From Alphaproteobacteria bacterium (GTDB taxonomy: Bacteria; Pseudomonadota; Alphaproteobacteria; Rs-D84): a stretch of 55,114 nt of DNA. The translations under genes and the position numbers were made by a program. Where the stretch lies: assembly GCA_009783855.1 (NCBI GenBank), contig WRCO01000004.1, forward strand, positions 1 to 55,114. Direction: 5' to 3'. Under the pieces are notes generated by a model. It was not told the origin of the DNA and did no database searches. It worked only from the letters and a program-made list of their open reading frames with translations. Of the stretch, positions 3,994 to 55,114 are shown in pieces; position 1 is the first letter of the stretch, and each line of letters starts with the position of its first letter.

Positions 3994-4096
3994 GGCAAAA
4001 GCATAGATGGAGCATGGATAGTGTCGAGATTAAAAAGATATTTTACGGGTATTGGAAAAGCATCCATGCTCTATGCTCTATGCTTTATGCTCTTTG
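3994..4096. repeat. CTCTATG-type palindromic cassette carrying start and signal peptide of slt
   Basis: The left arm AGCATAGATGGAGCATGGAT is followed by the GTG start and AGATTAAAAA. The right arm is ATCCATG, CTCTATG, CTCTATG, CTTTATG, CTCTTTG at 4062-4096. The arms are inverted copies, so the unit is a palindrome. It begins right after the nrdR stop and ends inside the signal peptide. The same cassette, in the other orientation, starts the secreted protein gene at 13689. Confidence 0.85.
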
Positions 4097-5784
4097 TTTG
4101 CGGCTTTGCCGCGAACGCGTCCCAACTTCCCAACATCCTGTCCGACCACGACGCCGATGTGTATTCAAGGATTTTCAAACTTCAGGCCCAGGAACGAATC
4201 GCCGACGCAGCGCGGCTTTACAAAGAAATCCAAGACCCGCTGTTGATGTCGGACGTGCTTCATCAAAAATATATGTCGCGGACCTACCGCACGCCGGCGG
4301 CGGAACTTGCCGAATGGATGCGCCTGTATTGGAACATGCCCGGCGCGCCTGCGATACACGCGCTTGCCAAGCGGCGCGGCGCCGCGACGCGCGCGCCCGT
4401 CGTTCCGGTATCCGTCGCGCTTACCGGCGACCATATCGCGCAATCGGAAAACTGGACAACGCAGCGGTACACGGGCGAAACCGCGCGCCAGATCAATCAA
4501 TTCCGGTCCTTTCTTCGGCGCGGCCATACGCGCAACGCGCGCGCAATTCTTGAAGACCGTTCTTTCAAGCGCCGCGTAAACACGGAAGATTACGGGCGGC
4601 TTGCCGGGCGGCTTGCGTTTATATATTATTCGGGCGGGCATTTCGAACTTGCGCGCGAATGGGGCATGATTGCGGCGGAATCGAAATCCGAATTCGGACT
4701 TTGGACTATGGGTCTTGTGTCGTTCAAACAGGGCGATTTCGACGACGCGCATAATTATTTCGCACTGTTGTCCGAAGTCGGACATATTAACGAAACACGA
4801 AGGGGTGAGGCGGCGTTCTGGGCCGGCCGCGCGGCGGCGGCGAACGGCGACAACCGGACGGCGCGGAAGTTCTGGCGCATTGCGGCGCGGCGCCCCCAGA
4901 CTTTTTACGGCGCATTGGCGGCGGCCATGCTTGGCGAAGTGCCGCGGTACGAATTCTTTGAATCAAACTGGTCAAGGGAAGACATAGCGGAACTTATGCG
5001 TACGGCGTACGGCATGCGCGCGCTTGCGCTTTTGCAAATCGGCGAGAACGCGCGCGCCGAAGGCCATCTTCGCTTTCTTATCGCGGACAGTTCCAACAAC
5101 CGGCTTTTGCACGCGGTGCACGCGGTCGCCGAAGCGGCAAGCCTTGGCCGCACAAGCATGCAGGTGTCCGTGATGATACGCAACCGCGGCATTGTGGAAC
5201 TTGACGACAATGTCATTTCCGCCGCGCAATATCCGATGCCGGGTTGGGAACCGCTTGGCGGATGGTCTATAGACCGCGCCCTGCTCTTTGCCGTCATGCG
5301 ACAGGAATCGGGATTCAAACCGACCGCAAAATCGCGCGTCGGCGCCAAAGGCGTGATGCAGATAATGCCCGGAACCGCGCGCATGGTCGCGCGCCAAAAC
5401 AATATGCGCATGGCCGACATAGACATGTCGCACCCGGAATACAACATGTTTTTGGGGCAACAGCATATTGTGGACTTGCTTGCGCTGCCCAATATTAACA
5501 ACTGCATCATAAGAATGCTTGTCGCGTATAACGCGGGTCCCGTCGCAAAGAACAGATGGGAAAGAAGATTCCAAACGGACGACCCGCTTCTTTATATCGA
5601 AAGCTTTCCGTTCGCCGAGACGCGCGGTTATATAAAGCGCGTGCTGTCCAATCTTTGGATTTATCGCGCGCGGCTTGGTCAACCGCTTACCAACATATCC
5701 GAATTGGCGGACGGCAAATGGCCGAAATACGGCTCGTATGACCAGTATGTGATAACGCTGCCGCGTTCGATTCAACGGATATAA
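4021..5784 (+). CDS. slt: Soluble lytic murein transglycosylase, Slt type
   Basis: 587 residues. An N-terminal signal peptide (residues 1 to about 34, core KASMLYALCFMLF) leads to a long superhelical alpha region with TPR-like helices (about 35-400) and a C-terminal goose-type lysozyme domain. The catalytic Glu is E429 in RQESGF, followed by GAKGVMQIMPGTA and later AYNAGP. The enzyme cleaves peptidoglycan glycan strands in the periplasm to 1,6-anhydromuropeptides. The E. coli protein is about 645 residues, so this one is slightly short. The start is GTG. Both it and the hydrophobic core of the signal peptide are encoded by a palindromic heptamer cassette shared with an unrelated secreted protein. 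Confidence 0.93.
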   Translation: MSRLKRYFTGIGKASMLYALCFMLFVCGFAANASQLPNILSDHDADVYSRIFKLQAQERIADAARLYKEIQDPLLMSDVLHQKYMSRTYRTPAAELAEWMRLYWNMPGAPAIHALAKRRGAATRAPVVPVSVALTGDHIAQSENWTTQRYTGETARQINQFRSFLRRGHTRNARAILEDRSFKRRVNTEDYGRLAGRLAFIYYSGGHFELAREWGMIAAESKSEFGLWTMGLVSFKQGDFDDAHNYFALLSEVGHINETRRGEAAFWAGRAAAANGDNRTARKFWRIAARRPQTFYGALAAAMLGEVPRYEFFESNWSREDIAELMRTAYGMRALALLQIGENARAEGHLRFLIADSSNNRLLHAVHAVAEAASLGRTSMQVSVMIRNRGIVELDDNVISAAQYPMPGWEPLGGWSIDRALLFAVMRQESGFKPTAKSRVGAKGVMQIMPGTARMVARQNNMRMADIDMSHPEYNMFLGQQHIVDLLALPNINNCIIRMLVAYNAGPVAKNRWERRFQTDDPLLYIESFPFAETRGYIKRVLSNLWIYRARLGQPLTNISELADGKWPKYGSYDQYVITLPRSIQRI

Positions 5785-6539: not shown

Positions 6540-7702
6540 CCATTCGCACCATCAATGACCTTTCCGACGTCCGCGGCAAATATATTCTGCTTCGCGATGA
6601 TTTTAATGTCCAGATTATAGACGGGAAAATCATGGACGCGTTTCGTATCGAGCAAAGCATGCCGACCATACGGAAATTAAAGGACATGGGCGCGCGCACC
6701 GCGATTGCCGCGCATCTTGGCCGCCCCGATGGCGCGGATGCAAAATATTCCCTTGCGCCGATTGCGGAATATATGAAAATCCCGCTTGTCCCCGATTGCC
6801 TTTCCAAAGATTTTATGGCGGACATGAAAGACGGCGATGTGGTGTTATTGGAAAACGTCCGCTTTCATGCGGGCGAAGAAGAAAACTGTCCGGAATTCGC
6901 AAAAGAATTGGCGCGCGGGTTCGATGTATACGTGAACGACGCGTTTGCCGTTTCGCACCGCGCGCACGCGTCGCTTGTCGGCGTTACGAAATTCCTGCCG
7001 TCATACGCCGGCGAATTAATGGCAAAGGAAATTTCGGAATTAACACGCGTTATGGAAAATCCGACGCGGCCTTTGCTTGGGCTTATAAGCGGCGCGAAAA
7101 TCAAATCCAAAATCGGCGTTATCAAAGCGTTTGGAAAACTGTGCGATAAAATCATACTTGCGGGCGGCATCGGCACCGGCGTTTTGGCGGCGATGGGCGC
7201 GAAAAATCTTGCGATGACGGCGGACAACCTTGAAAAATATGACGACGAAGTCGTTCATGAAATCATGACGGAATTCGGCGACAAGATTATTCTTCCGCTT
7301 GAAAAAGGCGTCGGCGCCGAATGGTCCAAAGAAACAAAGCGCACGGATAAAATGATGGCGGACATATTGCCGACCGACGTCCCGATGGACGAAGGCCCGG
7401 CATCCGTCGCGGAATTCAACCGCGCGATTGACGACGCGAAAACCATTATATGGAACGGCACGGTCGGCATGGCGGAATGGGCGCCGACATGGTCCGTCGG
7501 TACATTTGCGATTGTGCGGCATATAGCACAGCGCACACGCGACGGCGAATTGGAATCCATCGTTGGCGGCGGCGATACAATCGCGGCGGTCGAAGCGGTC
7601 GGCGCCATAAACGACGTCACATACGCGTCCACCGGCGGCGGCGCGTTTTTGGAATTTATAGAAGGCAAAACTCTGCCCGGCATCGCAGCGCTTGAAAAAT
7701 AA
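6536..7702 (+). CDS. pgk: Phosphoglycerate kinase
   Basis: 388 residues, near the usual bacterial length of about 395. The substrate-binding N domain shows LRDDFNVQ near the start, the AHLGRPDG loop and the helix region ending in VNDAFAVSHRAHAS. The nucleotide-binding C domain shows GGGDTIAAVE and the terminal STGGGAFLEF. It catalyses the reversible transfer of phosphate from 1,3-bisphosphoglycerate to ADP in glycolysis. The ATG lies inside the end of rnhB and ftsY begins two bases after its stop, so the three genes form a tight operon. Another glycolytic gene, tpiA, lies 9 kb downstream. Confidence 0.96.
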   Translation: MTIRTINDLSDVRGKYILLRDDFNVQIIDGKIMDAFRIEQSMPTIRKLKDMGARTAIAAHLGRPDGADAKYSLAPIAEYMKIPLVPDCLSKDFMADMKDGDVVLLENVRFHAGEEENCPEFAKELARGFDVYVNDAFAVSHRAHASLVGVTKFLPSYAGELMAKEISELTRVMENPTRPLLGLISGAKIKSKIGVIKAFGKLCDKIILAGGIGTGVLAAMGAKNLAMTADNLEKYDDEVVHEIMTEFGDKIILPLEKGVGAEWSKETKRTDKMMADILPTDVPMDEGPASVAEFNRAIDDAKTIIWNGTVGMAEWAPTWSVGTFAIVRHIAQRTRDGELESIVGGGDTIAAVEAVGAINDVTYASTGGGAFLEFIEGKTLPGIAALEK

Positions 7703-11766: not shown

Positions 11767-13689
11767 TTATCTTGGCACACAGTCCCAATGCGGGCTGCCC
11801 CGATGGGTATGAGTATCATTACATTCAAGCACAGAGCACACGCCTCTCCAACGACCGGTCGATTCTTCACACCATTCCTGTCCTCTTGACGCTCCCGCGG
11901 GCAGCGTTGGGCACGGCCTTACACCCGCCGGTTGGCGAGTTATCGGCGATGTTCTCATCTCGGTCGCATCAGCACCGCATTTACTTTGCGTCCTTGACGT
12001 GGGCGCCGCGCATGCGGTCCGCGCCTCGTTGGGCTGCTGCCCTTCTGGACAAGGCGTACATACACCTCCGCGCGGACTTATATGACCAGCCGGACACGGT
12101 TCGCACGCTGTGCCGTCTGTGCCGGGCCGTGTGCCAAGTCTGCATTGTACACATTCCGTCTGATTTTCATTGGGTATCCTGTCGGCACGGCAAGCTTCAC
12201 ATCGGTGGCTTGCATTAACTATCTGGTTCAGACGGCATGGAACGCATACTCCGCCACTGTACTCCTGACCAGGGGCGCAAGGGCTCGCATTATTATTGTT
12301 ATCACCGCCGGCGCCGGGGGGGGGGGCGCCGCCTCCACCACCTGTACTGTCGCTTCCACCGCCACCACCGGTATCGCCGCTACTGCCGTCGTCTTCATTT
12401 GGGTCCACGCAAGCATTGCGCCAGGCAACCCATCTTCTTCCTTCGGCTTCGCATTGGTCGCGGCCCGCGCTGCGCCTGTCCATCGCTCTGTTAATCGCGC
12501 CGGATGCGACAAGGGCCGTTGCCATTCCATACATCGCGCCCGTGGTCGCGGCCTGTGCGCCGCGTGCTTCGCGTTCCGCACGCGCAATATTTTCAAGATA
12601 CATGGTAAGGTCCACGCCAAACCATTCCGGCGTGCACATAAATTCCGTCCCGGCGTTGACCGTTCTTGACGCAACGACGCCGTCCCAATCTCCGCTTGCT
12701 CGCATGGTAAGGTTGAACAGGCATTCGAACGAACGCTGGTCGAACATTCCGCCGATATTGCGGCATCCGGCCTCCATCTGTCCGCGCATCGTGTAAAGCC
12801 GTCTTTCGGCTTCCATCGCTTCGCGCTCCATCGCCACGCGCATGATGCCAAGCGCTTCAAGCGTGCGCGCCTGTAATCCCGAATCCGCGGCGCGGCATCT
12901 GTCGGCGATATGGCGGCATGCCTGTACGGCCGCTTCGCCCGCTTGCCGGGACAGGCAATTAACATACGGAGTGCCGCCGATACGGATGCTTCGGTTGCTT
13001 CGGCTGAAACGGTCCGTTACGGAAAACTGTTGCGAGCAATGCTCCATTATACAAAGGTTGTAATCTTCGCCGCATTGATTGGCGTCGCGAAATCCGACCA
13101 CCGTCGCGTTCAAATCACGGTCGGCTTTTATTTCGACGGAAAACAAAGCGGTCTCGCGCGCAGAACAATTCGCGCCGCGCGCGCAAGATTCGATTTTGAT
13201 ACCCCAAATGGCATCGGAATCCGTCGCGCATCTTGTGAAATCTTCACCGCATTGCTGTTCCATGCATACGCGCATAGCTTCGTCGCACGACGATGTGATT
13301 ACGTTATTCTGCGGCGGCGTGAAAAGCACGCCCTGTGGCTGTACCGCTTGTTGCCGGCGCAACGCTTCGGCAAGTGCGCCGCCGCCGTCGCCGACGTCCT
13401 GATTGGCGCCGGTAAACACAAGATTGAAATTCACCCGGGGGTCGAATGGAGGCGGAGGGGGCGGAGGCGCCGACGGCGCTTCTTCAACAACAGGCGCCGG
13501 GGCGGGCGCCGGAGGCATGACGCCGGCACTTGCCGTGCGGGTGCGGGGCGCCACCTGGCCGCCGCGCGTAGTGACGTTGGCAGGACCGGCGTGCGCACTT
13601 GCGCAAAGCGCAAAAAAGAGCATAGAGCATAGAGCATAGAGCATGGATGCTTTCCAGAGACCTGCAAAACTGTTTTTTAATCTAAACAC
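11767..13689 (-). CDS. Secreted Cys-rich protein with Pro/Gly linkers, unknown function
   Basis: 640 residues, start GTG. The signal peptide (1 to about 35, KASMLYALCSMLF core) is encoded by the same palindromic cassette as that of slt. Next come a Pro-rich stretch (about 57-80), two copies of the motif C-x6-C-M-x3-C-x2-[DQ]F (MRVCMEQQCGEDFTRC near residue 150, then LCIMEHCSQQF), a hydrophobic segment near 390, a Gly-rich linker holding a C11 base tract, and a C-terminal region of spaced CxxC pairs (CVPC, CEAC, CEPC, CTPC) like growth-factor-receptor or GCC2/3 repeats. It is probably surface-exposed or periplasmic and disulphide-bonded. It follows a related gene after 34 bases. Confidence 0.7.
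   Translation of the reverse strand: MFRLKNSFAGLWKASMLYALCSMLFFALCASAHAGPANVTTRGGQVAPRTRTASAGVMPPAPAPAPVVEEAPSAPPPPPPPFDPRVNFNLVFTGANQDVGDGGGALAEALRRQQAVQPQGVLFTPPQNNVITSSCDEAMRVCMEQQCGEDFTRCATDSDAIWGIKIESCARGANCSARETALFSVEIKADRDLNATVVGFRDANQCGEDYNLCIMEHCSQQFSVTDRFSRSNRSIRIGGTPYVNCLSRQAGEAAVQACRHIADRCRAADSGLQARTLEALGIMRVAMEREAMEAERRLYTMRGQMEAGCRNIGGMFDQRSFECLFNLTMRASGDWDGVVASRTVNAGTEFMCTPEWFGVDLTMYLENIARAEREARGAQAATTGAMYGMATALVASGAINRAMDRRSAGRDQCEAEGRRWVAWRNACVDPNEDDGSSGDTGGGGGSDSTGGGGGAPPPGAGGDNNNNASPCAPGQEYSGGVCVPCRLNQIVNASHRCEACRADRIPNENQTECVQCRLGTRPGTDGTACEPCPAGHISPRGGVCTPCPEGQQPNEARTACAAPTSRTQSKCGADATEMRTSPITRQPAGVRPCPTLPAGASRGQEWCEESTGRWRGVCSVLECNDTHTHRGSPHWDCVPR
12316..12326. repeat. 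C11 homopolymer tract in the secreted protein gene
   Basis: Eleven G on the plus strand, so eleven C in the gene, reading Ala-Pro-Pro-Pro. One-base slippage would shift the frame near residue 454 and remove the Cys-rich C-terminus. Confidence 0.9.
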
Positions 13690-13721
13690 TTATCCATACT
13701 CCATCTGTGCTCTACGCTCTA
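13617..13721. repeat. CTCTATG-type palindromic cassette, second copy
   Basis: Read on the minus strand, it begins directly after the TAA of the upstream gene. It runs through AGAGCACAGATGGAGTATGG, the GTG start and AGATTAAAAA, and ends in the heptamers CTCTATG inside the signal peptide (13618-13650). A 28-base block of the heptamer arm is the same as in the slt copy. Confidence 0.85.
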
Positions 13722-13723
13722 TT

Positions 13724-14623
13724 TTATCTCGTATGCCGGACAGGGGCGGGCGCCGTCGGCGCGATTTCATTTCTTATCCGACCGCATGCGATATCCACAT
13801 GTTCGCATAACAGCCGCGCTATGCGGGTATTGTCCACACTGCCCTGGCACCCGCCGATGATATTGCATTTTTCCGTTTCGCACGCCACCCGGGCCGGAGC
13901 CCTTGCGCCGCCGCCCGTCATGCAATCCGTGCCAATCGCCCTTACCCATTCTTCGCGGTCGGCCCTGTGTCTGCGCGCGACGGTTTCGGCGTTTGCTGTG
14001 CGGTTTGTTTCAAAATTGTCACGTTCCGTCCGCATTGCCGTCCGTATATTTGCAATGTTTTGGTCAGAGCCGCAGTTCGTAGTAATAGTGCATGCGGAAA
14101 AATGTCGGTCCAAATCCGCGTCCACCATACACGCAGCCCAATTGGCGCCGCATCTTTCAGTAACGCATCGGCGAAGGTCCGCCTGGCTGCATTGGTCGCC
14201 CGGGGTTTGCGCCATCGCTGTCCGGGACGCGTCGGCGCCCGTCCGTTCCACAAGCGCCGCGTTGCACGATTGCATTATCAAGGTATTATAATTGTCGCGC
14301 ACATCGTCCGCGGTACAGTCCGCGATTAAGCGCATGCATTCCGTCGCGGCCCATACGTATCTTTCCCGCGGGTCCGTCGGCGCGTTTCTTGTGTCAAGTG
14401 TCGTGGCACTTGGACGCTGTGCCAAGGGTTGGCGGCGCAGCGTCGCCTGACCCGATCCGCAAAGAGCGCACCGCACCGTCGGGTCGCCCGTAAGTCCCGC
14501 GACGCACGCGGAATCAAGACACCGGACAAGGTTCGGAACATGGCATCGCGCATCGGCCGCGCCGATAAACATGGCACAGGTCGCAAGGCACAAGGCAAAA
14601 AACTTTGCGGCTTTTTTCATCAT
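13724..14623 (-). CDS. Secreted Cys-motif protein, unknown function
   Basis: 299 residues. The signal peptide (MKKAAKFFALCLATCAMFIG, cleavage after AADA) is followed by paired cysteines: CHVP, CLDSAC, CALC, and the motif CVTERCGANWAAC shared with the neighbouring and downstream secreted proteins. The middle is Ala/Arg/Thr-rich and probably helical. No enzyme motif is seen. Two ATGs in a row could serve as the start; GAGAGG lies just upstream. It is the first gene of a two-gene unit with the 640-residue Cys-rich protein. It could be an envelope structural protein or an adhesin component; the function is unknown. Confidence 0.7.
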   Translation of the reverse strand: MMKKAAKFFALCLATCAMFIGAADARCHVPNLVRCLDSACVAGLTGDPTVRCALCGSGQATLRRQPLAQRPSATTLDTRNAPTDPRERYVWAATECMRLIADCTADDVRDNYNTLIMQSCNAALVERTGADASRTAMAQTPGDQCSQADLRRCVTERCGANWAACMVDADLDRHFSACTITTNCGSDQNIANIRTAMRTERDNFETNRTANAETVARRHRADREEWVRAIGTDCMTGGGARAPARVACETEKCNIIGGCQGSVDNTRIARLLCEHVDIACGRIRNEIAPTAPAPVRHTR

Positions 14624-17514: not shown

Positions 17515-19176
17515 CTATCGCCAAATTGTCGACATAATATGAAAGTCGGAAAGCCCGGTCGCACCTGTGTACATGTTGTTGCTGTGCCCGGCCCAGGGAC
17601 TGCCGTTGTTCCCCATAAATTTTTCCCACACAAACTGTCTTTTGGCATTGATTTCTTCTTGGGTATCGGTATCCAGCACAGGGTTGTCCGGATTGATAAG
17701 CGTCCGTGCGGACGGCCCGGTCAGACCGGTGCAGCCATTGAATGTGCCGTCAAACATCCATGATGACGCGTTTCCGTGAATACCATCAAACAGCCCGTCA
17801 CCTATGCCGGTAAGGCCGGTGCTGTTTCTGAATGTATTTTGAAACATCCACGCATCCGGCGGTCCGGCAATTCCGGCGAACAACCGACCGGGAATTATGC
17901 CCGTCAAACCGGGGACATCCCTGAACGTGCTGTTAAATATATTTTGACGCGGCGGGCCTTGAACCCCGGCGAACAAGTTTTCCGGTATCGGACCGGTTAG
18001 ACCGGTGTTTTGAAATGTACCATCAAATACAGCGGATTCTGGCGAACCTTGAATCCCGGCGAACAAGTTTTCCGGTATCGAGCCGGTCATATTGGGATTG
18101 TCGGCAAATGTTCTGGCAAACATGTGCGCCCTTGGCGGGCCTTGAATCCCGGCGAACAGGTTTTCCGGTATAGAACCGGTTACGCCGGCGTTACGGAATG
18201 TACCGCTGAACATTGCGTCCGCTGATAATCCCTGAATACTGCTGAACAGGTTTTCCGGGATTTCGGTTATTCCGGTGTTGTTAAATGTATTCGCGAACAT
18301 AGAATTTTGCGGCGGCCCCTTTATGGTGGCGAACAGATTTTCCGGGATACTGGTCAAGTTGGTGCAATCGGCGAACGTACCTTGGAACATAGTCGCTCCG
18401 GTTCTTTCTATCCCGGCAAACAATGTTTCCGGAATTTCGGTCAGACCCGTAAATCCCCTGAACGTATTTATAAACCTTGGGCGTAATGTTGCGCCGGAAC
18501 CGTCGCCGATTGTTGGAAACACGGCGCCAAGGTCGCCTTCAAGTTTTGTAACCTTTGCCCGAAGCGGAGAGTTTTCGAACGTTATCGAAGACCGAATTTC
18601 CAGCAAGCCATGCGCACTTGTAAATCCGCCCAAACCGATGACATAATCCCCATCTTGGGTAAAAGTGCGTCTTGCCGTCGCCGGCGTCATATGTAAAATT
18701 TGCGGAGGCGTGCCATCGCCCCAATTGACGCTGTATGTTCCGTGCACGGCATCTATACGAAAACTGAACTCTTCGCCCGCCTTTACGTCGGTAAGGTGTA
18801 ACCAAAATCGCGGCGCAAATGTAATTAACCGTTCCGCTGCGTTCTTAACCGCTTCTACATTAGCCGCCTGGGTAGTCGCATATTCAGATTCGCAATAATT
18901 GGTGGTGGGCCCCATGTTTATTGCTGCATTCGCCATGTCAACAAGGCACAACAAATATTCCATATTTGCAATGCGGGTGTTTGCGCCCGTGTTAATCCAA
19001 CTTGGATTGGTCTGAGGAACGTGCGCGTGTATCGCGTTTCTTATCGCCAGGTGCACAAACTGGACGGTTGCCACACGCGTGTTTTCGGCATGGGCCGCAG
19101 ATGCAAAAACAAACATCAAAAAAGCAATTAATCGCGTACGGAACATTTTTGCCACAAATTTTGGGAATCCTTCCAT
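17515..19176 (-). CDS. BspA-like secreted repeat protein
   Basis: 554 residues from the ATG at 19176, the position fixed by the promoter six bases upstream. An alternative ATG at 19146 gives the bare signal peptide MFRTRLIAFLMFVFASAAHA. After a conserved start (VHLAIRNAIH) there is a PKD-like part with VNWGDGTPPQIL, then eight or nine tandem repeats of about 30 residues with the pattern IPENLFAGIQGPP-x3-MF-x2-TF-x4-GLTG. The MF..TF..GLT spacing recalls BspA/DUF285-type surface repeats, though the consensus differs. It is probably an adhesin or binding protein. A paralogue with the same domain order sits at the end of the window. It converges on grpE with no visible terminator. Confidence 0.75.
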   Translation of the reverse strand: MEGFPKFVAKMFRTRLIAFLMFVFASAAHAENTRVATVQFVHLAIRNAIHAHVPQTNPSWINTGANTRIANMEYLLCLVDMANAAINMGPTTNYCESEYATTQAANVEAVKNAAERLITFAPRFWLHLTDVKAGEEFSFRIDAVHGTYSVNWGDGTPPQILHMTPATARRTFTQDGDYVIGLGGFTSAHGLLEIRSSITFENSPLRAKVTKLEGDLGAVFPTIGDGSGATLRPRFINTFRGFTGLTEIPETLFAGIERTGATMFQGTFADCTNLTSIPENLFATIKGPPQNSMFANTFNNTGITEIPENLFSSIQGLSADAMFSGTFRNAGVTGSIPENLFAGIQGPPRAHMFARTFADNPNMTGSIPENLFAGIQGSPESAVFDGTFQNTGLTGPIPENLFAGVQGPPRQNIFNSTFRDVPGLTGIIPGRLFAGIAGPPDAWMFQNTFRNSTGLTGIGDGLFDGIHGNASSWMFDGTFNGCTGLTGPSARTLINPDNPVLDTDTQEEINAKRQFVWEKFMGNNGSPWAGHSNNMYTGATGLSDFHIMSTIWR

Positions 19177-26991: not shown

Positions 26992-27100
26992 CCCGTCATT
27001 CCCGCGAAGGCGGGGATCCATTGTATAATGATGCGTCGCCAGCTTTGCTGGCGACGACCTTTTGAGAGCAGTGGATTCCCGCCTTCGCGGGAATGACGGG
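26992..27100. repeat. Large REP-like palindrome with inner hairpin
   Basis: The 32-base arms (starting CCCGTCATTCCCGCGAAGG and ending CCTTCGCGGGAATGACGGG) match at 30 positions. Between them lies a perfect 10-base-pair stem, CGTCGCCAGC, at 27034-27056. It starts 13 bases after the upstream stop and may end that transcript. A half copy lies at 14682-14746. Confidence 0.85.
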
Positions 27101-32709: not shown

Positions 32710-32800
32710 CTCACTTTGTTCGCAGGCACTAGGCACCGGGCACTAGGCACTGGCTTTGCTTTTACGACACTAGTGCCTAACGCCCAGTGCCTGGTCACTA
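32710..32800. repeat. Heptamer palindrome, GGCACTA type, rpsM-rpsK
   Basis: Arms GGCACTAGGCACCGGGCACT and CACTAGTGCCTAACGCCCAG around a short loop, flanked by the conserved stretch CGAACAAAGTGAG before the rpsK ATG. The rpsM TAG stop lies in the repeat. Confidence 0.85.
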
Positions 32801-35086: not shown

Positions 35087-35177
35087 GTTTTACTCACTTC
35101 GTTCGTCGTGGCTGGTGGCTTGTGCCGGTGATTCGTGGCTATCCAACCAGCCACCAGCACCAGCCACCAATCACTAA
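35087..35177. repeat. Heptamer palindrome, GTGGCTG type, rpmD-rplO
   Basis: Arms GTGGCTGGTGGCTTGTGCCG and CCAGCCACCAGCACCAGCCA around ATCCAA. It begins right after the rpmD TAA and ends with CGAACGAAGTGAG before the rplO ATG. Confidence 0.85.
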
Positions 35178-35916: not shown

Positions 35917-35937
35917 TGTTTGCTCACTTTGTTCGTC

Positions 35938-36013
35938 GTGACTGGTGGCTCGTGCTGGTGGTTCGTGGCTATCTAACCAGCCGCCAACCACCAGCACCAG
36001 CCACCAACACGAA
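35938..36013. repeat. Heptamer palindrome, GTGGCTG type, rplR-rpsE
   Basis: Arms built from GTGGCTC, GTGCTG, GTGGTTC, GTGGCTA and their inverted copies around TCTAAC. Bases 35942-35999 are the same, without a mismatch, as 36382-36439 in the next gap. Confidence 0.9.
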
Positions 36014-36367
36014 TTAAAATTTCAACCCGCCGGCGCGTATCGCTTCGGCAAGCGCTTTTACGCGGCCATGATATCTGTATCCGCCGCGGTCGAAATATAC
36101 GTCGTCAAGCTTTGCGGTCTTCGCGCGGTCCGCGAAATTTTTTCCGACGGCGGCGGCGCCCGCGATGTTGTGTCCTTTGCCCTTAAAGCCTTTTTCTTTT
36201 GACGACGCGGCGCAAAGCGTGCATCCCTTCGCATCATTGATGGCCTGGATTTCGATATGCGTGTTCGAACGGAAAACGCACAGGCGAACCTTGCTCGGAT
36301 TTTTGCGTTTTAACTCGCCGCGGTTCGACAAAAGCCTTCTTTGCTCTGTTGTTAAATGTTTTGACAT
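36014..36367 (-). CDS. rplR: Ribosomal protein L18
   Basis: 117 residues. The basic start ([20 protein letters not shown]) and the 5S rRNA-binding fold with [12 protein letters not shown] and the end [20 protein letters not shown]-like ([14 protein letters not shown]) are standard. L18 helps join 5S rRNA to the 50S subunit. Palindromes lie on both sides of the gene, and those two share a 58-base identical block. Confidence 0.96.
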
Positions 36368-36377
36368 GTTTTTACCT

Positions 36378-36447
36378 CGTGCTGGTGGCTCGTGCTGGTG
36401 GTTCGTGGCTATCTAACCAGCCGCCAACCACCAGCACCAATCACTAA
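36378..36447. repeat. Heptamer palindrome, GTGGCTG type, rplF-rplR
   Basis: The second member of the identical pair. It begins right after the rplF TAA. Here the conserved GAACGAAGTGAG flank is shortened to AGGTAAAAAC before the rplR ATG. Confidence 0.9.
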
Positions 36448-37008: not shown

Positions 37009-37027
37009 GTTTTACTCACTTCGTTCG

Positions 37028-37098
37028 TTAGTGGCTGGTGACTCGTGCCGGTGGCTTGTGGCTATCTACCAGCCACCAGCACCAGCCACCAGCACAAA
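37028..37098. repeat. Heptamer palindrome, GTGGCTG type, rpsH-rplF
   Basis: Arms GTGGCTGGTGACTCGTGCCG and CCAGCCACCAGCACCAGCCA around TATCTA; followed on the coding strand by CGAACGAAGTGAG and the rplF ATG. It abuts the rpsH TAA. Confidence 0.85.
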
Positions 37099-39977: not shown

Positions 39978-40053
39978 TCGTGGCACTAGGCACTGGGCAC
40001 TAGGCACTATTTTTTATCCTACACTAGTGCCTAACGCCTAGTGCCTAGTCCCT
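39978..40053. repeat. Heptamer palindrome, GGCACTA type, rplP-rpmC
   Basis: Arms GGCACTAGGCACTGGGCACT and ACTAGTGCCTAACGCCTAGT around an AT-rich loop. On the coding strand the rplP TAG stop is the first three bases of a TAGGGAC/TAGGCAC heptamer run. The far side ends with CGAACGAAGCGAG and the rpmC ATG. Confidence 0.9.
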
Positions 40054-40459
40054 AATTCGCTTTCCGTTCAACGACCTTTGTGCGCACCGGTAATTTAGCG
40101 GACGCAAGCCGCATACATTCGTGCGCCATTTCCGGCTTTACGCCGTCAAGTTCAAACATGATGCGGCCCGGCTTTACGCGCGCGACCCAGCGGTCGACGG
40201 CGCCTTTACCTTTACCCATGCGGACTTCGGCCGGTTTTTTGGTGACGGGCACGTCCGGGAATATGCGTATCCACAATTTTCCCATACGCTTCATGTGGCG
40301 GGTGATTGCGCGGCGCGCGGCTTCTATCTGGCGCGCGGTGACGCGTTCCGGCGACATTGCTTTCAACCCAAAGGACCCGAATGAAAGTTCAGAGCCGCCC
40401 TTTGCATTTCCATGAATGCGTCCTTTGAACTGTTTTTTGAACCTTGTCTTTTTCGGCAT
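40052..40459 (-). CDS. rplP: Ribosomal protein L16
   Basis: 135 residues from [17 protein letters not shown]; an ATG two codons earlier is an alternative. [39 protein letters not shown] and the end [14 protein letters not shown] are standard. L16 lies near the peptidyl transferase centre and the A-site tRNA elbow. Palindromes flank it on both sides, and its TAG stop is part of one. Confidence 0.96.
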
Positions 40460-40486: not shown

Positions 40487-40554
40487 GTCGTGTTGGTGAC
40501 TCGTGCTGGTGATTCGTGGCTTTACCAGCCACCGGCACCAGCCACCGGCACGAA
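40487..40554. repeat. Heptamer palindrome, GTGGCTG type, rpsC-rplP
   Basis: Arms GTTGGTGACTCGTGCTGGTG and CCAGCCACCGGCACCAGCCA around TTTA. It abuts the rpsC TAA and is followed by AAAAGCGAG before rplP. Confidence 0.85.
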
Positions 40555-44154: not shown

Positions 44155-44176
44155 TTCATGCTCGCTTTGCTTCGCA

Positions 44177-44205
44177 GGCACTAGGCACTGGGCACTAGGC
44201 ACTGG
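44177..44205. repeat. Single-arm GGCACTA-type repeat overlapping the rplC end
   Basis: GGCACTAGGCACTGGGCACT continuing with AGGCACTGG. It codes, on the minus strand, for the last residues (TSA) and the TAG stop of rplC. Confidence 0.85.
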
Positions 44206-44992
44206 TTTCTTCTTCCGTTTTAAGTTCTTCCGCAACAGGTTCTGTCGCGATTTCTTCCGCTTGTTCCGCGACCGCCTCGGCGACCTCTTCACCAATGATC
44301 ACAGGTTCCTGGCCACCGGTCACCGCCGATTTTGTCGGTGTCGGCAAATCCTTGTGTTCTATTTTCACCGCATCGGTGACAAGAACGAATGTTCCGTTCG
44401 CGCCCGGGACGCTGCCGGACACATAAATCAAATTATCTTCTTCGTTGATGCCGAATACTTTAAGGTTCTGGACAGTAACGGTTTCATTACCCATTTGTCC
44501 CGGCATCTTTTTACCTTTGAACACGCGGCCCGGCCATTCGCGCTGACCTGTGCCGCCAAGCGAACGATGCGCTTTAAGAACGCCGTGCGATGCTTCAAGT
44601 CCGGCAAAGTTATGACGTTTCATCGCGCCTTGGAAACCTTTGCCCTTTGATGTTCCTTGGGCGTCAATCATTTGACCTTCGACAAAATGTCCCGCCGACA
44701 TCGCCGTGCCAACAGGAATCAGACAATCTTCGGAAACGCGGAATTCGACAACTTTGCGATATGCTTTCACGCCCTCTTTCTTCGCCGCGACCAGTTGCGG
44801 TTTGTTGACATGTTTGTCTTTGGCTTCTTGGAATCCGACCTGGACCGCGACGTATCCGTGTTTGGACTGGGTGCGGTTGCCGATGACCGCACAATCGCCG
44901 ACGGACAGAACAGTGACGCCGTGCGCCACGCCTTTGTCGTCAAACAGGCGCGTCATCCCAATTTTTTTCGTTATCAATCCCGAACGTTTCAT
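44195..44992 (-). CDS. rplC: Ribosomal protein L3 with acidic tail ended by a repeat
   Basis: 265 residues. Standard L3 runs to about residue 215: MKRSGLITKKIGMTRLFDDK, KGKGFQGAMKRHNFAGLEAS, GHRSLGGTGQ-like and KKMPGQMGNETVTVQNLKV. A tail of about 45 residues rich in Glu and Ala follows (EEVAEAVAEQAEEIATEPVA). The last three residues and the stop are encoded by a heptamer array. L3 lies near the peptidyl transferase centre and starts 50S assembly. Confidence 0.96.
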   Translation of the reverse strand: MKRSGLITKKIGMTRLFDDKGVAHGVTVLSVGDCAVIGNRTQSKHGYVAVQVGFQEAKDKHVNKPQLVAAKKEGVKAYRKVVEFRVSEDCLIPVGTAMSAGHFVEGQMIDAQGTSKGKGFQGAMKRHNFAGLEASHGVLKAHRSLGGTGQREWPGRVFKGKKMPGQMGNETVTVQNLKVFGINEEDNLIYVSGSVPGANGTFVLVTDAVKIEHKDLPTPTKSAVTGGQEPVIIGEEVAEAVAEQAEEIATEPVAEELKTEEETSA

Positions 44993-48701: not shown

Positions 48702-48723
48702 TTTTTTGCTCGTTTCTCTCGCC

Positions 48724-48790
48724 GTGCTGGTGACTCGTGCCGGTGACTCGTGGCTATCTACCAGCCATCAGCACCAACACCAACACGAAT
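48724..48790. repeat. Heptamer palindrome, GTGGCTG type, rpsG-fusA
   Basis: Arms GTGCTGGTGACTCGTGCCGG and CCAGCCATCAGCACCAACAC around TATCTA, close to the rpsG stop. Confidence 0.85.
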
Positions 48791-49280: not shown

Positions 49281-49425
49281 TCACTCGTAGGCACTAGGCA
49301 CTGGGCACTAGGCACTGGTTACTCACTTTATTTTATAAACCTTTATAAAACTTCAGTGCGGCTAGGCTGTTTTATTTTAACCCGGACTACTAGTGCCTAG
49401 TGCCTAGTGCCCAGTGCCCTGTCAG
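49281..49425. repeat. Long heptamer palindrome, GGCACTA type, rpsL-rpsG
   Basis: Left arm 49289-49319 and right arm 49389-49421 (CTAGTGCCTAGTGCCTAGTG) enclose about 70 bases of AT-rich sequence, more than in other copies. The conserved flank before the rpsG ATG is GTGAAACGAG. Confidence 0.85.
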
Positions 49426-49796
49426 GCTTTCTTCGCCTTTGCGCCATACAGCGAACGGCTTTGTTTTCTTGCGGCCACGCCCTGGGTATCCAAGACGCCG
49501 CGGATGATGTGATATTTGACACCCGGCAAGTCGCGCACTTTCCCGCCGCGTATCATGACGACGCTGTGTTCTTGAAGGTTGTGGCCTTCGCCCGGAATAT
49601 ATGCGGTGACTTCGCGTCCGTTTGCCAATTTGACACGGGCGACTTTACGTTGGGCCGAATTAGGTTTTTTCGGGGTGGTCGTGTAAACGCGCGTGCAAAC
49701 GCCGCGCTTTTGAGGATTTCCCTTCATATCCGGCGACTTGGAACGATTCGCAATCTTCTTGCGCGGTTTCCGAATCAGTTGGTTTACTGTTGGCAT
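49422..49796 (-). CDS. rpsL: Ribosomal protein S12 with Arg88
   Basis: 124 residues: [54 protein letters not shown] and [20 protein letters not shown]. Position 43 is the usual Lys, but position 88 is Arg (codon CGC) where most bacteria have Lys. Lys88 to Arg is a known streptomycin-resistance change in other species. S12 lines the decoding site. It is the first gene of the supercluster, behind a strong promoter and a leader of about 143 bases. Confidence 0.97.
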
Positions 49797-53796: not shown

Positions 53797-55114
53797 TTAC
53801 CGCCACGCCGCGGGGATGCTGTTGAAATTATTCAAACCCGTTGCGCCGGCAAAAGCGCCGCCGACATGGGCAGTCGTGGCGGACGGCCATCTTTGATGCA
53901 AAAGCTGTCCGTTGGTAAACTGGGCCGCCGGTCCTCGCAACCCGGCAGCGCCTCGGAACGTGCTGACAAACATACTGCTTTGAGCTGTACCAGATATCCC
54001 GTCGAACAAGCCTGTGCCTATACCAGTCAAACCGGTTGCACCATTGAATGTCCCAACAAACATATCGTTTGCCGCAGGACCTTGGATTCCGGCAAAAAGA
54101 TTGCCTGGGATTTCCCCGGTCAGGCCGGACGCACCATTGAACGTATTTGCGAACATGTTGCTCCGCGGTGGTCCCTGGATTCCAGCGAACAGGTTTTCGG
54201 GTATAGAGCCGGTCAGACCACGACACAAATTAAATGTATGAGAAAACATATCAAAAGCCGGCGGGCCTTGGATTCCAGCAAACAAATTCGGTGGTATTTG
54301 TCCTGTCAGTGCGGGTGCGCCATTGAATGTGCTCATGAACATTTGTGGTGCGGGCGGCCCTTGGATTCCAGCGAACAGGTTTTCGGGTATCGGGCCGGAC
54401 AAGATACCATTCGCATGAAATGTGCCCCTGAACATATTTGCTGCCGGTGGGCCTTGCAGTCCGGCAAACAGATTCGGTGGTATCGGGCCGGCCCAACCGT
54501 CCAACTGTTGGAATGTCCAAACAAACCGCGGGCTACCGGTATTAGTAGCGTTCAGTATGGGAAATATGCTGCCCAGGTCGCCGGCAATACCGACAATTCT
54601 GCCCCGATTCACAGAGTTTAAAAAAGATATCGCCGCCGTCATTATATCGGCATTATAACTCGTCGCCCGGCCCCTTATAGTTACGGTATACGGTCCGCCG
54701 CTGTATCTTGGCGACGCGGGCGATGTGTATGTCGTAAGCGTAGTGTTGGTCTTGTTTATAATCTGTGGCGCGGTGCCAAGACCCCAGTCTATTTCAAAAT
54801 TACCTGCGGCGGATATCTGAAAACTGAACTGCGAATTCACGGGCATATTGTTCAGTGTCACTTGGAACTTGCCGTGTACAAGCGGTTCGGTCAGGCTGTA
54901 GACCTGATTGTCCGGCATCCGGATGGTCAGCCGCCCGGGCGCGGTACCCGCGACCAGATTTCCATACCATACGTCGTTTTCCGGCATACGTACCGCAAGC
55001 GCCGGCGAACTTCTCTTATCCGAGGTCAATGGAACCGATTGGTTGCCTATATGCAAAGTCCGCGCCATACCCGTAGGGGCAAATATCATTTGCCCCAAAA
55101 GTATCAATCCCAGA
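53797..55114 (-). CDS. BspA-like secreted repeat protein, paralogue (5' end outside window)
   Basis: At least 438 residues; the frame is open to the last base of the window, and LILLGQMIFAPTGMA looks like the end of a signal peptide, so little is missing. The order is the same as in the 554-residue protein at 17515: an N-terminal part, a PKD-like part (FSFQISAAGNFEIDWGLGTA), then six tandem repeats of about 30 residues (IPENLFAGIQGPP-x3-MF-x2-TF-x4-LTG), and the same closing motif GATGL-x2-F-x6-WR. The near-uniform repeats suggest recent expansion. Probably a surface-binding protein. It ends upstream of the acpP promoter. Confidence 0.75.
   Translation of the reverse strand, partial: LGLILLGQMIFAPTGMARTLHIGNQSVPLTSDKRSSPALAVRMPENDVWYGNLVAGTAPGRLTIRMPDNQVYSLTEPLVHGKFQVTLNNMPVNSQFSFQISAAGNFEIDWGLGTAPQIINKTNTTLTTYTSPASPRYSGGPYTVTIRGRATSYNADIMTAAISFLNSVNRGRIVGIAGDLGSIFPILNATNTGSPRFVWTFQQLDGWAGPIPPNLFAGLQGPPAANMFRGTFHANGILSGPIPENLFAGIQGPPAPQMFMSTFNGAPALTGQIPPNLFAGIQGPPAFDMFSHTFNLCRGLTGSIPENLFAGIQGPPRSNMFANTFNGASGLTGEIPGNLFAGIQGPAANDMFVGTFNGATGLTGIGTGLFDGISGTAQSSMFVSTFRGAAGLRGPAAQFTNGQLLHQRWPSATTAHVGGAFAGATGLNNFNSIPAAWR

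Follow-up and report, generated by a model that had tools for sequence, protein, structure and literature searches.

The stretch of DNA analysed here, 55,114 nucleotides long and referred to as the window, spans one entire contig of a 901 kb genome, designated G000, which comprises 31 contigs and is 94% complete. Two of its genes, with GTG start codons at position 13689 on the minus strand and at position 4021 on the plus strand, open with a common cassette of approximately 100 bp. This cassette begins with a left arm of AGAGCAT-type heptads, followed by the start codon, a segment encoding xxRLK..KAS, and finally ATGCTCT heptads (Table 1). In copy 1, the basic n-region between the GTG codon and the heptads is FRLKNSFAGLWKAS, and cleavage is predicted, at the motif level only, between AHA and G. 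Both copies have inverted arms and are predicted to fold into a long stem-loop, with z-scores for the RNA stem of -7.3 (left arm with heptads, copy 1) and -5.8 (copy 2); some related arrays lack a left arm. An Rfam search with the long hairpin returned only sub-threshold miRNA models.

Table 1. Features of the two cassette copies and their genes in the window.
Feature	Position	Strand	Basis
Cassette copy 1, whole match	13608..13724	minus	sequence and BLAST
Left arm of copy 1, AGAGCGTAGAGCACAGATGGAGTATGGAT, inverted relative to the heptads	13692..13720	minus	sequence
Likely SD (GGAG) in left arm of copy 1	13702-13699	minus	sequence
Predicted signal peptide region of copy 1, GTG start, VFRLKNSFAGLWKASMLYALCSMLFFALCASAHA then G	13588..13689	minus	translation
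Heptad array of copy 1, (ATGCTCT)x4, hydrophobic core, followed by the c-region	13617..13644	minus	sequence
Gene for Cys-rich exported protein with TNFR-like repeat	11767..13689	minus	ORF; Pfam PF23091, E 9e-9
Upstream gene	13724..14623	minus	ORF; no Pfam match
Cassette copy 2, 84% over 103 nt	4000..4102	plus	BLAST
Left arm of copy 2, AGCATAGATGGAGCATGGAT, with SD GGAG	4000..4019	plus	sequence
Predicted signal peptide region of copy 2, GTG start, VSRLKRYFTGIGKASMLYALCFMLFVCGFAANAS	4021..4122	plus	translation
Heptad array of copy 2, ATGCTCT units and one ATGCTTT	4066..4093	plus	sequence
SLT lytic transglycosylase gene	4021..5784	plus	Pfam SLT, E 3e-21

A preliminary description, made from sequence alone, had claimed that the same cassette is present at both gene starts, and this held. 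The two copies have an exact string of 28 nt in common (AAAGCATCCATGCTCTATGCTCTATGCT), both carry AGATTAAAAA directly after the start codon, and when both loci were aligned by BLAST the match reached 103 nt at 84% identity (E 5e-24). It is the longest inverted repeat in the window (79 nt at 82%), and 20 shuffled windows gave exact inverted matches no longer than 15-19 nt, versus the 28 nt observed. The segment ATGCTCTATGCTCT is found 7 times in the window when up to 2 mismatches are allowed, versus 0.13 expected. The claim that the cassette starts directly after the stop codon of the preceding gene held for copy 1, which follows the upstream gene's TAA (13726-13724). A third claim was that the two proteins have nothing in common past the signal peptide, and homology between the mature parts had been set beforehand as its refutation. 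This was looked for by blastp of the two mature parts against each other, and no match was found at E<=1. Whole-gene duplication as the source of the match was therefore rejected.

A search of G000 yielded 33 cassette matches at E<=1, approximately 30 more than had been described. Nine are near full length (L001-L006, L010, L011, and L013), and each of the nine opens, in sense orientation, a gene whose product is exported or is a lipoprotein. The Pfam domains of these genes include SLT, secretin, BamB-type PQQ, S41 peptidase with PDZ, and OmpA. Shorter heptad copies start M48, LspA, SLT_2, and LolA genes. Among the mature parts tested within G000, no pair matched at E<0.2, and despite these unrelated genes, the copies at BamB, L013, and L295 are 89-92% identical over 75 nt. 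Related non-coding bases, of the GAGCACAGATAA type, precede the start codon of some copies in this genome. The claim that the cassette rather than the gene was copied is thus supported by nine near-full-length copies with mutually unrelated mature parts. The genes with a cassette or array fit the Sec signal-peptide plan, with a basic n-region, a hydrophobic h-region, an AxA motif or lipobox, and a conserved mature domain, and cleavage motifs (AHA/G, ANA/S, LASC, LAAC, and LSSC, at the motif level only) are found where orthology begins. The pN/pS ratio among copies, for the n- plus h-part, is ~0.6, which is a weak sign of peptide conservation. At several loci (L001, L002, L013, L037, and L049) the heptads are often directly followed by a small palindrome, for example TTTGCGGCTTTGCCGCAAACG; it codes for CGFAANA, which contains an AxA cleavage motif. 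In YidC, a heptad array is located in a variable linker, the length of which is unchanged, and this rules out a plain insertion. We also considered a YbeY-Lnt fusion (L018) as a product of the repeat, but dropped this, as the same long frame occurs in congeners and is array-free in some of them.

Whichever of the three frames is read, the ATGCTCT repeat encodes the same hydrophobic heptapeptide, MLYALCS; its reverse complement encodes RA(stop)SIEH, with a stop codon in every frame. Since 7 and 3 have no common factor, a suitable inverted heptad pair would act in any frame as a stop on one side and as a hydrophobic export signal on the other. In samples of 400-447 kb per genome, we counted 46, 52, and 117 tandem arrays with a period of 7 in G000, G003, and G008, respectively, versus 0-4 for periods of 5, 6, and 8-12. 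Arrays were also found between and inside genes. According to crude gene calls, the internal ones mostly read as hydrophilic peptides, and the N-terminal arrays of exported proteins as hydrophobic ones. In several families the left arm mirrors variants of its own right arm, as in L333 of G008, where GCTAATCGCTAATTGCTCATTGCTAATTGC is accompanied by AATTAGCAATGAGCAATTAGCGATTAGC upstream. The arrays of G003 have no left arms, and in G008 the n-regions are not common to different genes, so not every case resembles the copying of a whole cassette.

Other repeats were seen in the window. Intergenic inverted pairs of another heptad family, GGCACTAGGCACTGG and its inverse CTAGTGCC, lie at 32725-32756, 39982-40057, 44176-44222, and 49288-49430. 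G/T-rich inverted repeats of the CTGGTGGCTCGTG type make up a further family, located at gene borders (2140-2205, 35107-35177, 35937-36007, 36367-36447, 37020-37095, 40488-40551, and 48712-48786). A 32-nt inverted repeat, CCCGTCATTCCCGCGAAGGCGGGGATCCA, is present at 26992-27023 and 27069-27100; such repeats are common as intergenic palindromes in Proteobacteria. Two proteins (17919-18435 and 54042-54491, minus) contain tandem repeats of ~31 aa (SIPENLFAGIQGPPA...MF..TFNGA.GLTG) that match each other and have no Pfam match. At a separate locus, L289 (locus positions 6904-7011), an inverted GTGTGCA-type heptad pair lies in frame inside a PD-(D/E)XK nuclease gene.

For comparison with relatives we used G001, G003, and G004, which belong to the same genus as G000, G008 from the same family, and G020 from the genus of G008. 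With up to 1 mismatch, ATGCTCTATGCTCT occurs 58 times in G000, 125 times in G001, and 45 times in G008, versus 0-1 times in G003, G004, and G020, and its reversed control was absent from all six genomes. In a set of 201 genomes from the order, only G000 and G001 had full-length cassettes. At some G001 loci (L043, L049, L182, and L184) the arms enclose a common TTATTATGTGCTATGGTGGCAGGTT stretch before the start codon, which resembles a promoter rather than a stop-SD-start centre.

Orthologues of exported and membrane proteins were located in seven genomes by a joined query, and their N-termini were read. Array-free orthologues have a short, ordinary signal peptide, such as MKKIILILSFLFFGFSANA in LolA of G003, and this applies to most orthologues in G003, G004, and G020; in congeners these leaders occupy the same syntenic place. 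The heptad in the LolA leader differs between genomes, being ATGCTCT in G000, ATGCCCT in G001, and TTCACTA in G008. Other leader heptads are ATTGGTC/ATTAGTC (SLT) and ACTTCCT (BamB) in G008, and ATCTGCT in the secretin of G005. Where the upstream gene and its C-terminus were conserved, we measured the distance from the upstream stop codon to the mature domain. For LolA this was 73, 73, and 75 nt in G003, G004, and G020, versus 144, 115, and 158 nt in G000, G001, and G008; for BamB 67, 64, and 56 nt, versus 121 and 104 nt with arrays; and for an OmpA-type lipoprotein 55, 44, and 63 nt in G004, G020, and G005, versus 121 and 148 nt in G000 and G001. LolA of G004 also has a weak array (score 11), thus the LolA contrast is one of degree. 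The lipoboxes remain native, so it is apparently the n- and h-regions that were replaced and not the whole leader. Replacement instead of plain insertion at the array sites remains a possibility.

The periodicity of leader DNA was scored over the 75 nt that immediately precede the mature part, with a lag-7 segment score of at least 10 as threshold. Across nine envelope proteins, 31 of 60 orthologous loci had 7-periodic leaders. The nine genes had been chosen from the genome of the window; a second count that leaves out G000 gave 23 of 51. Other lags gave 0-3, synonymous shuffles had an expectation of 0.64, and only 1 of 120 mature windows scored. A broad class of signal peptides was over-inclusive and was used solely for comparing lags. 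Convergence at the peptide level was rejected, as the periodicity is lost once synonymous codons are shuffled.

Taken as a whole, these data are probably best explained by a dispersed heptad inverted repeat that is copied to gene borders as DNA and supplies leaders there. Several components of this explanation are shown directly: the sharing of DNA among unrelated genes, the array-free orthologous sites, the period of 7, the frame property, and the recurrence with other heptads. The cassette is one form of a wider class of period-7 arrays with many sequences, often arranged as inverted pairs. The preliminary description had missed this larger class, which appears to have rewritten signal peptides with sequences that differ between genomes, as well as the left inverted arm, the approximately 30 other genomic places, and the many other heptad families. 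Copying between loci is likely and well supported, and rests on shared DNA, with no observed gain at the strain level. That the leaders function in export is inferred, with signal peptides predicted from motifs only, and it is likewise an inference that arrays replaced native leaders and not the reverse.

In this view, the left arm (TAGAGCA type), with stops in all frames, would supply or adjoin the stop codon of the upstream gene, the centre would provide the ribosome-binding site, start codon, and basic n-region, and the right arm (ATGCTCT)n, open in three frames and always read as MLYALCS, would form the signal-peptide core. Copied as DNA to gene borders, the cassette would displace the native n- and h-regions in unrelated envelope proteins, and the mature protein would stay as it was, along with its cleavage site or lipobox. 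An inverted pair at a gene border would be tolerated, with one arm stopping translation and the other able to act as an export signal in any frame, and some border pairs would have displaced native leaders and then been retained. Inter-locus copying would give the common centre in G000, and slippage and template switching may give the many sequences and mirrored arms. The copying route is inferred, and may be recombination or conversion between arms, or an unidentified mobility function. The search for such a function covered only Y1_Tnp (RAYT), which was not found in G000, G001, G003, or G008, metagenome-assembled genomes (MAGs) that are 88-97% complete.

The alternative that survives best is a local origin, in which arrays arise by replication slippage in a tolerant leader and the left arm by template switching, and copying from one gene to another plays little part. 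This remains possible though unlikely, and is favored by the differing heptads at one gene across genomes, the restriction to period 7, the exactly mirrored arms, the G003 arrays without left arms, and the slippage hypothesis for heptamers cited in PMC4692102. However, the n-region and pre-start bases in G000 are not heptads and yet are common to unrelated genes, and a single heptad dominates many loci of one genome while being absent from congeners. Alternatively, the main reason for keeping the inverted pair could be an RNA hairpin with control over translation, such as upstream coupling, and the signal peptide would be a by-product. Start-region hairpins are indeed stronger than in array-free orthologues, and the SD is predicted to be paired in both window copies, but we consider this unlikely, since the accessibility of SD and start codon differs widely among copies, several arrays have no left arm, and the N-terminal arrays of exported proteins, and mostly not the internal ones, are hydrophobic. 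SD sequestration as a general rule was dropped because of its inconsistency across copies. Whole-gene duplication, or convergence of Leu-rich signal peptides, would fit with both products being exported, but can be practically discarded given the dissimilar mature parts, the loss of periodicity upon synonymous shuffling, and the common non-coding bases. An assembly artefact of a repeat-rich metagenome genome is equally remote. Three copies do lie at the ends of contigs (C16, C30, and C31), but most are internal to a contig, with intact synteny and reading frame, and separate assemblies show the pattern again.

Signal peptides are usually assumed to descend with their genes. If the heptad inverted repeat is indeed copied between gene borders, signal peptides here act as a swappable DNA part that is spread by a repeat, and repeat-borne leaders would give proteins a concrete way to gain or exchange an export signal in a single step. 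This would also plausibly account for the survival of inverted heptad repeats at the gene borders of compact genomes. The N-termini of orthologues in such genomes need to be read alongside a repeat map, and the idea can be applied to any lineage with heptamer repeats. A bolder reading is that, in a family of reduced Alphaproteobacteria, frame-blind stop/export modules, with in-frame ATGs on their hydrophobic side, keep overwriting the signal peptides of the conserved envelope machinery with interchangeable repeats through an unknown copying activity. On balance, we are slightly inclined to doubt this version.

In the open-licence literature that was searched, we found no description of heptad inverted repeats being used systematically as signal peptides. 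An exact-pattern scan of genome contigs gives only a lower bound for the spread of ATGCTCT arrays over bacteria. Two Nitrospirae MAGs (L188 and L242) contain a gene that we take to be TolB, recognised by eye and without a Pfam scan, with in-frame heptads on both sides of the signal peptide (KEQRAEGRGQR...LCSMLYALC), and it is possible that the heptad leader design has arisen elsewhere too.

Several known repeats resemble the elements described here. REP/REPIN sequences are dispersed short inverted repeats with RAYT transposases. The cassette is likewise dispersed as short inverted repeats at gene borders, but it consists of 7-nt units, and an identity as RAYT-driven REP was rejected based on the absence of a Y1 transposase from the four genomes searched. 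Rickettsia palindromic elements (RPE; Ogata et al. 2000, via PMC2229807) are 105-146 bp long and form in-frame inserts in protein genes. The similarity lies in short dispersed palindromes, both intergenic and in frame in unrelated genes, in a reduced alphaproteobacterial genome, and three RPE-type traits are present: non-homologous genes of a single genome carry dispersed copies, both window copies have inverted arms with a predicted long stem-loop, and site comparison shows in-frame insertion with array-free orthologues. Unlike RPE, the unit of the cassette is a 7-nt tandem repeat with many sequences, and it makes the stop, start, and signal peptide of a gene. In Yersinia, one predicted signal peptide, that of gene YPO1552, is partly made up of RU-2/YPAL (RU-2; Delihas 2007, PMC2759123); that case concerns one gene, whereas the heptad repeats are found in many unrelated conserved envelope genes, with several sequences and in several genomes. 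Finally, TAACTGA intergenic heptamers in Beggiatoaceae and cyanobacteria show a stop/open strand asymmetry near starts (PMC4679880), and GGGAATC-type heptamers have been described in Xanthomonas and Nostoc, with heptamers being over-represented in bacteria (PMC4692102). The arrays described here have in common with these the 7-nt tandem units near start codons, with stops in all frames on one strand versus an open heptapeptide on the other, and the over-representation of 7-nt units relative to other periods. They are not mainly intergenic, as in the G000 sample 21 arrays were intergenic versus 52 overlapping called genes, a split that rests on crude gene calls. The TAACTGA and GGGAATC heptamers were described as intergenic with proposed regulatory roles, whereas here the open strand codes for predicted signal peptides, and the start is flanked by inverted pairs.
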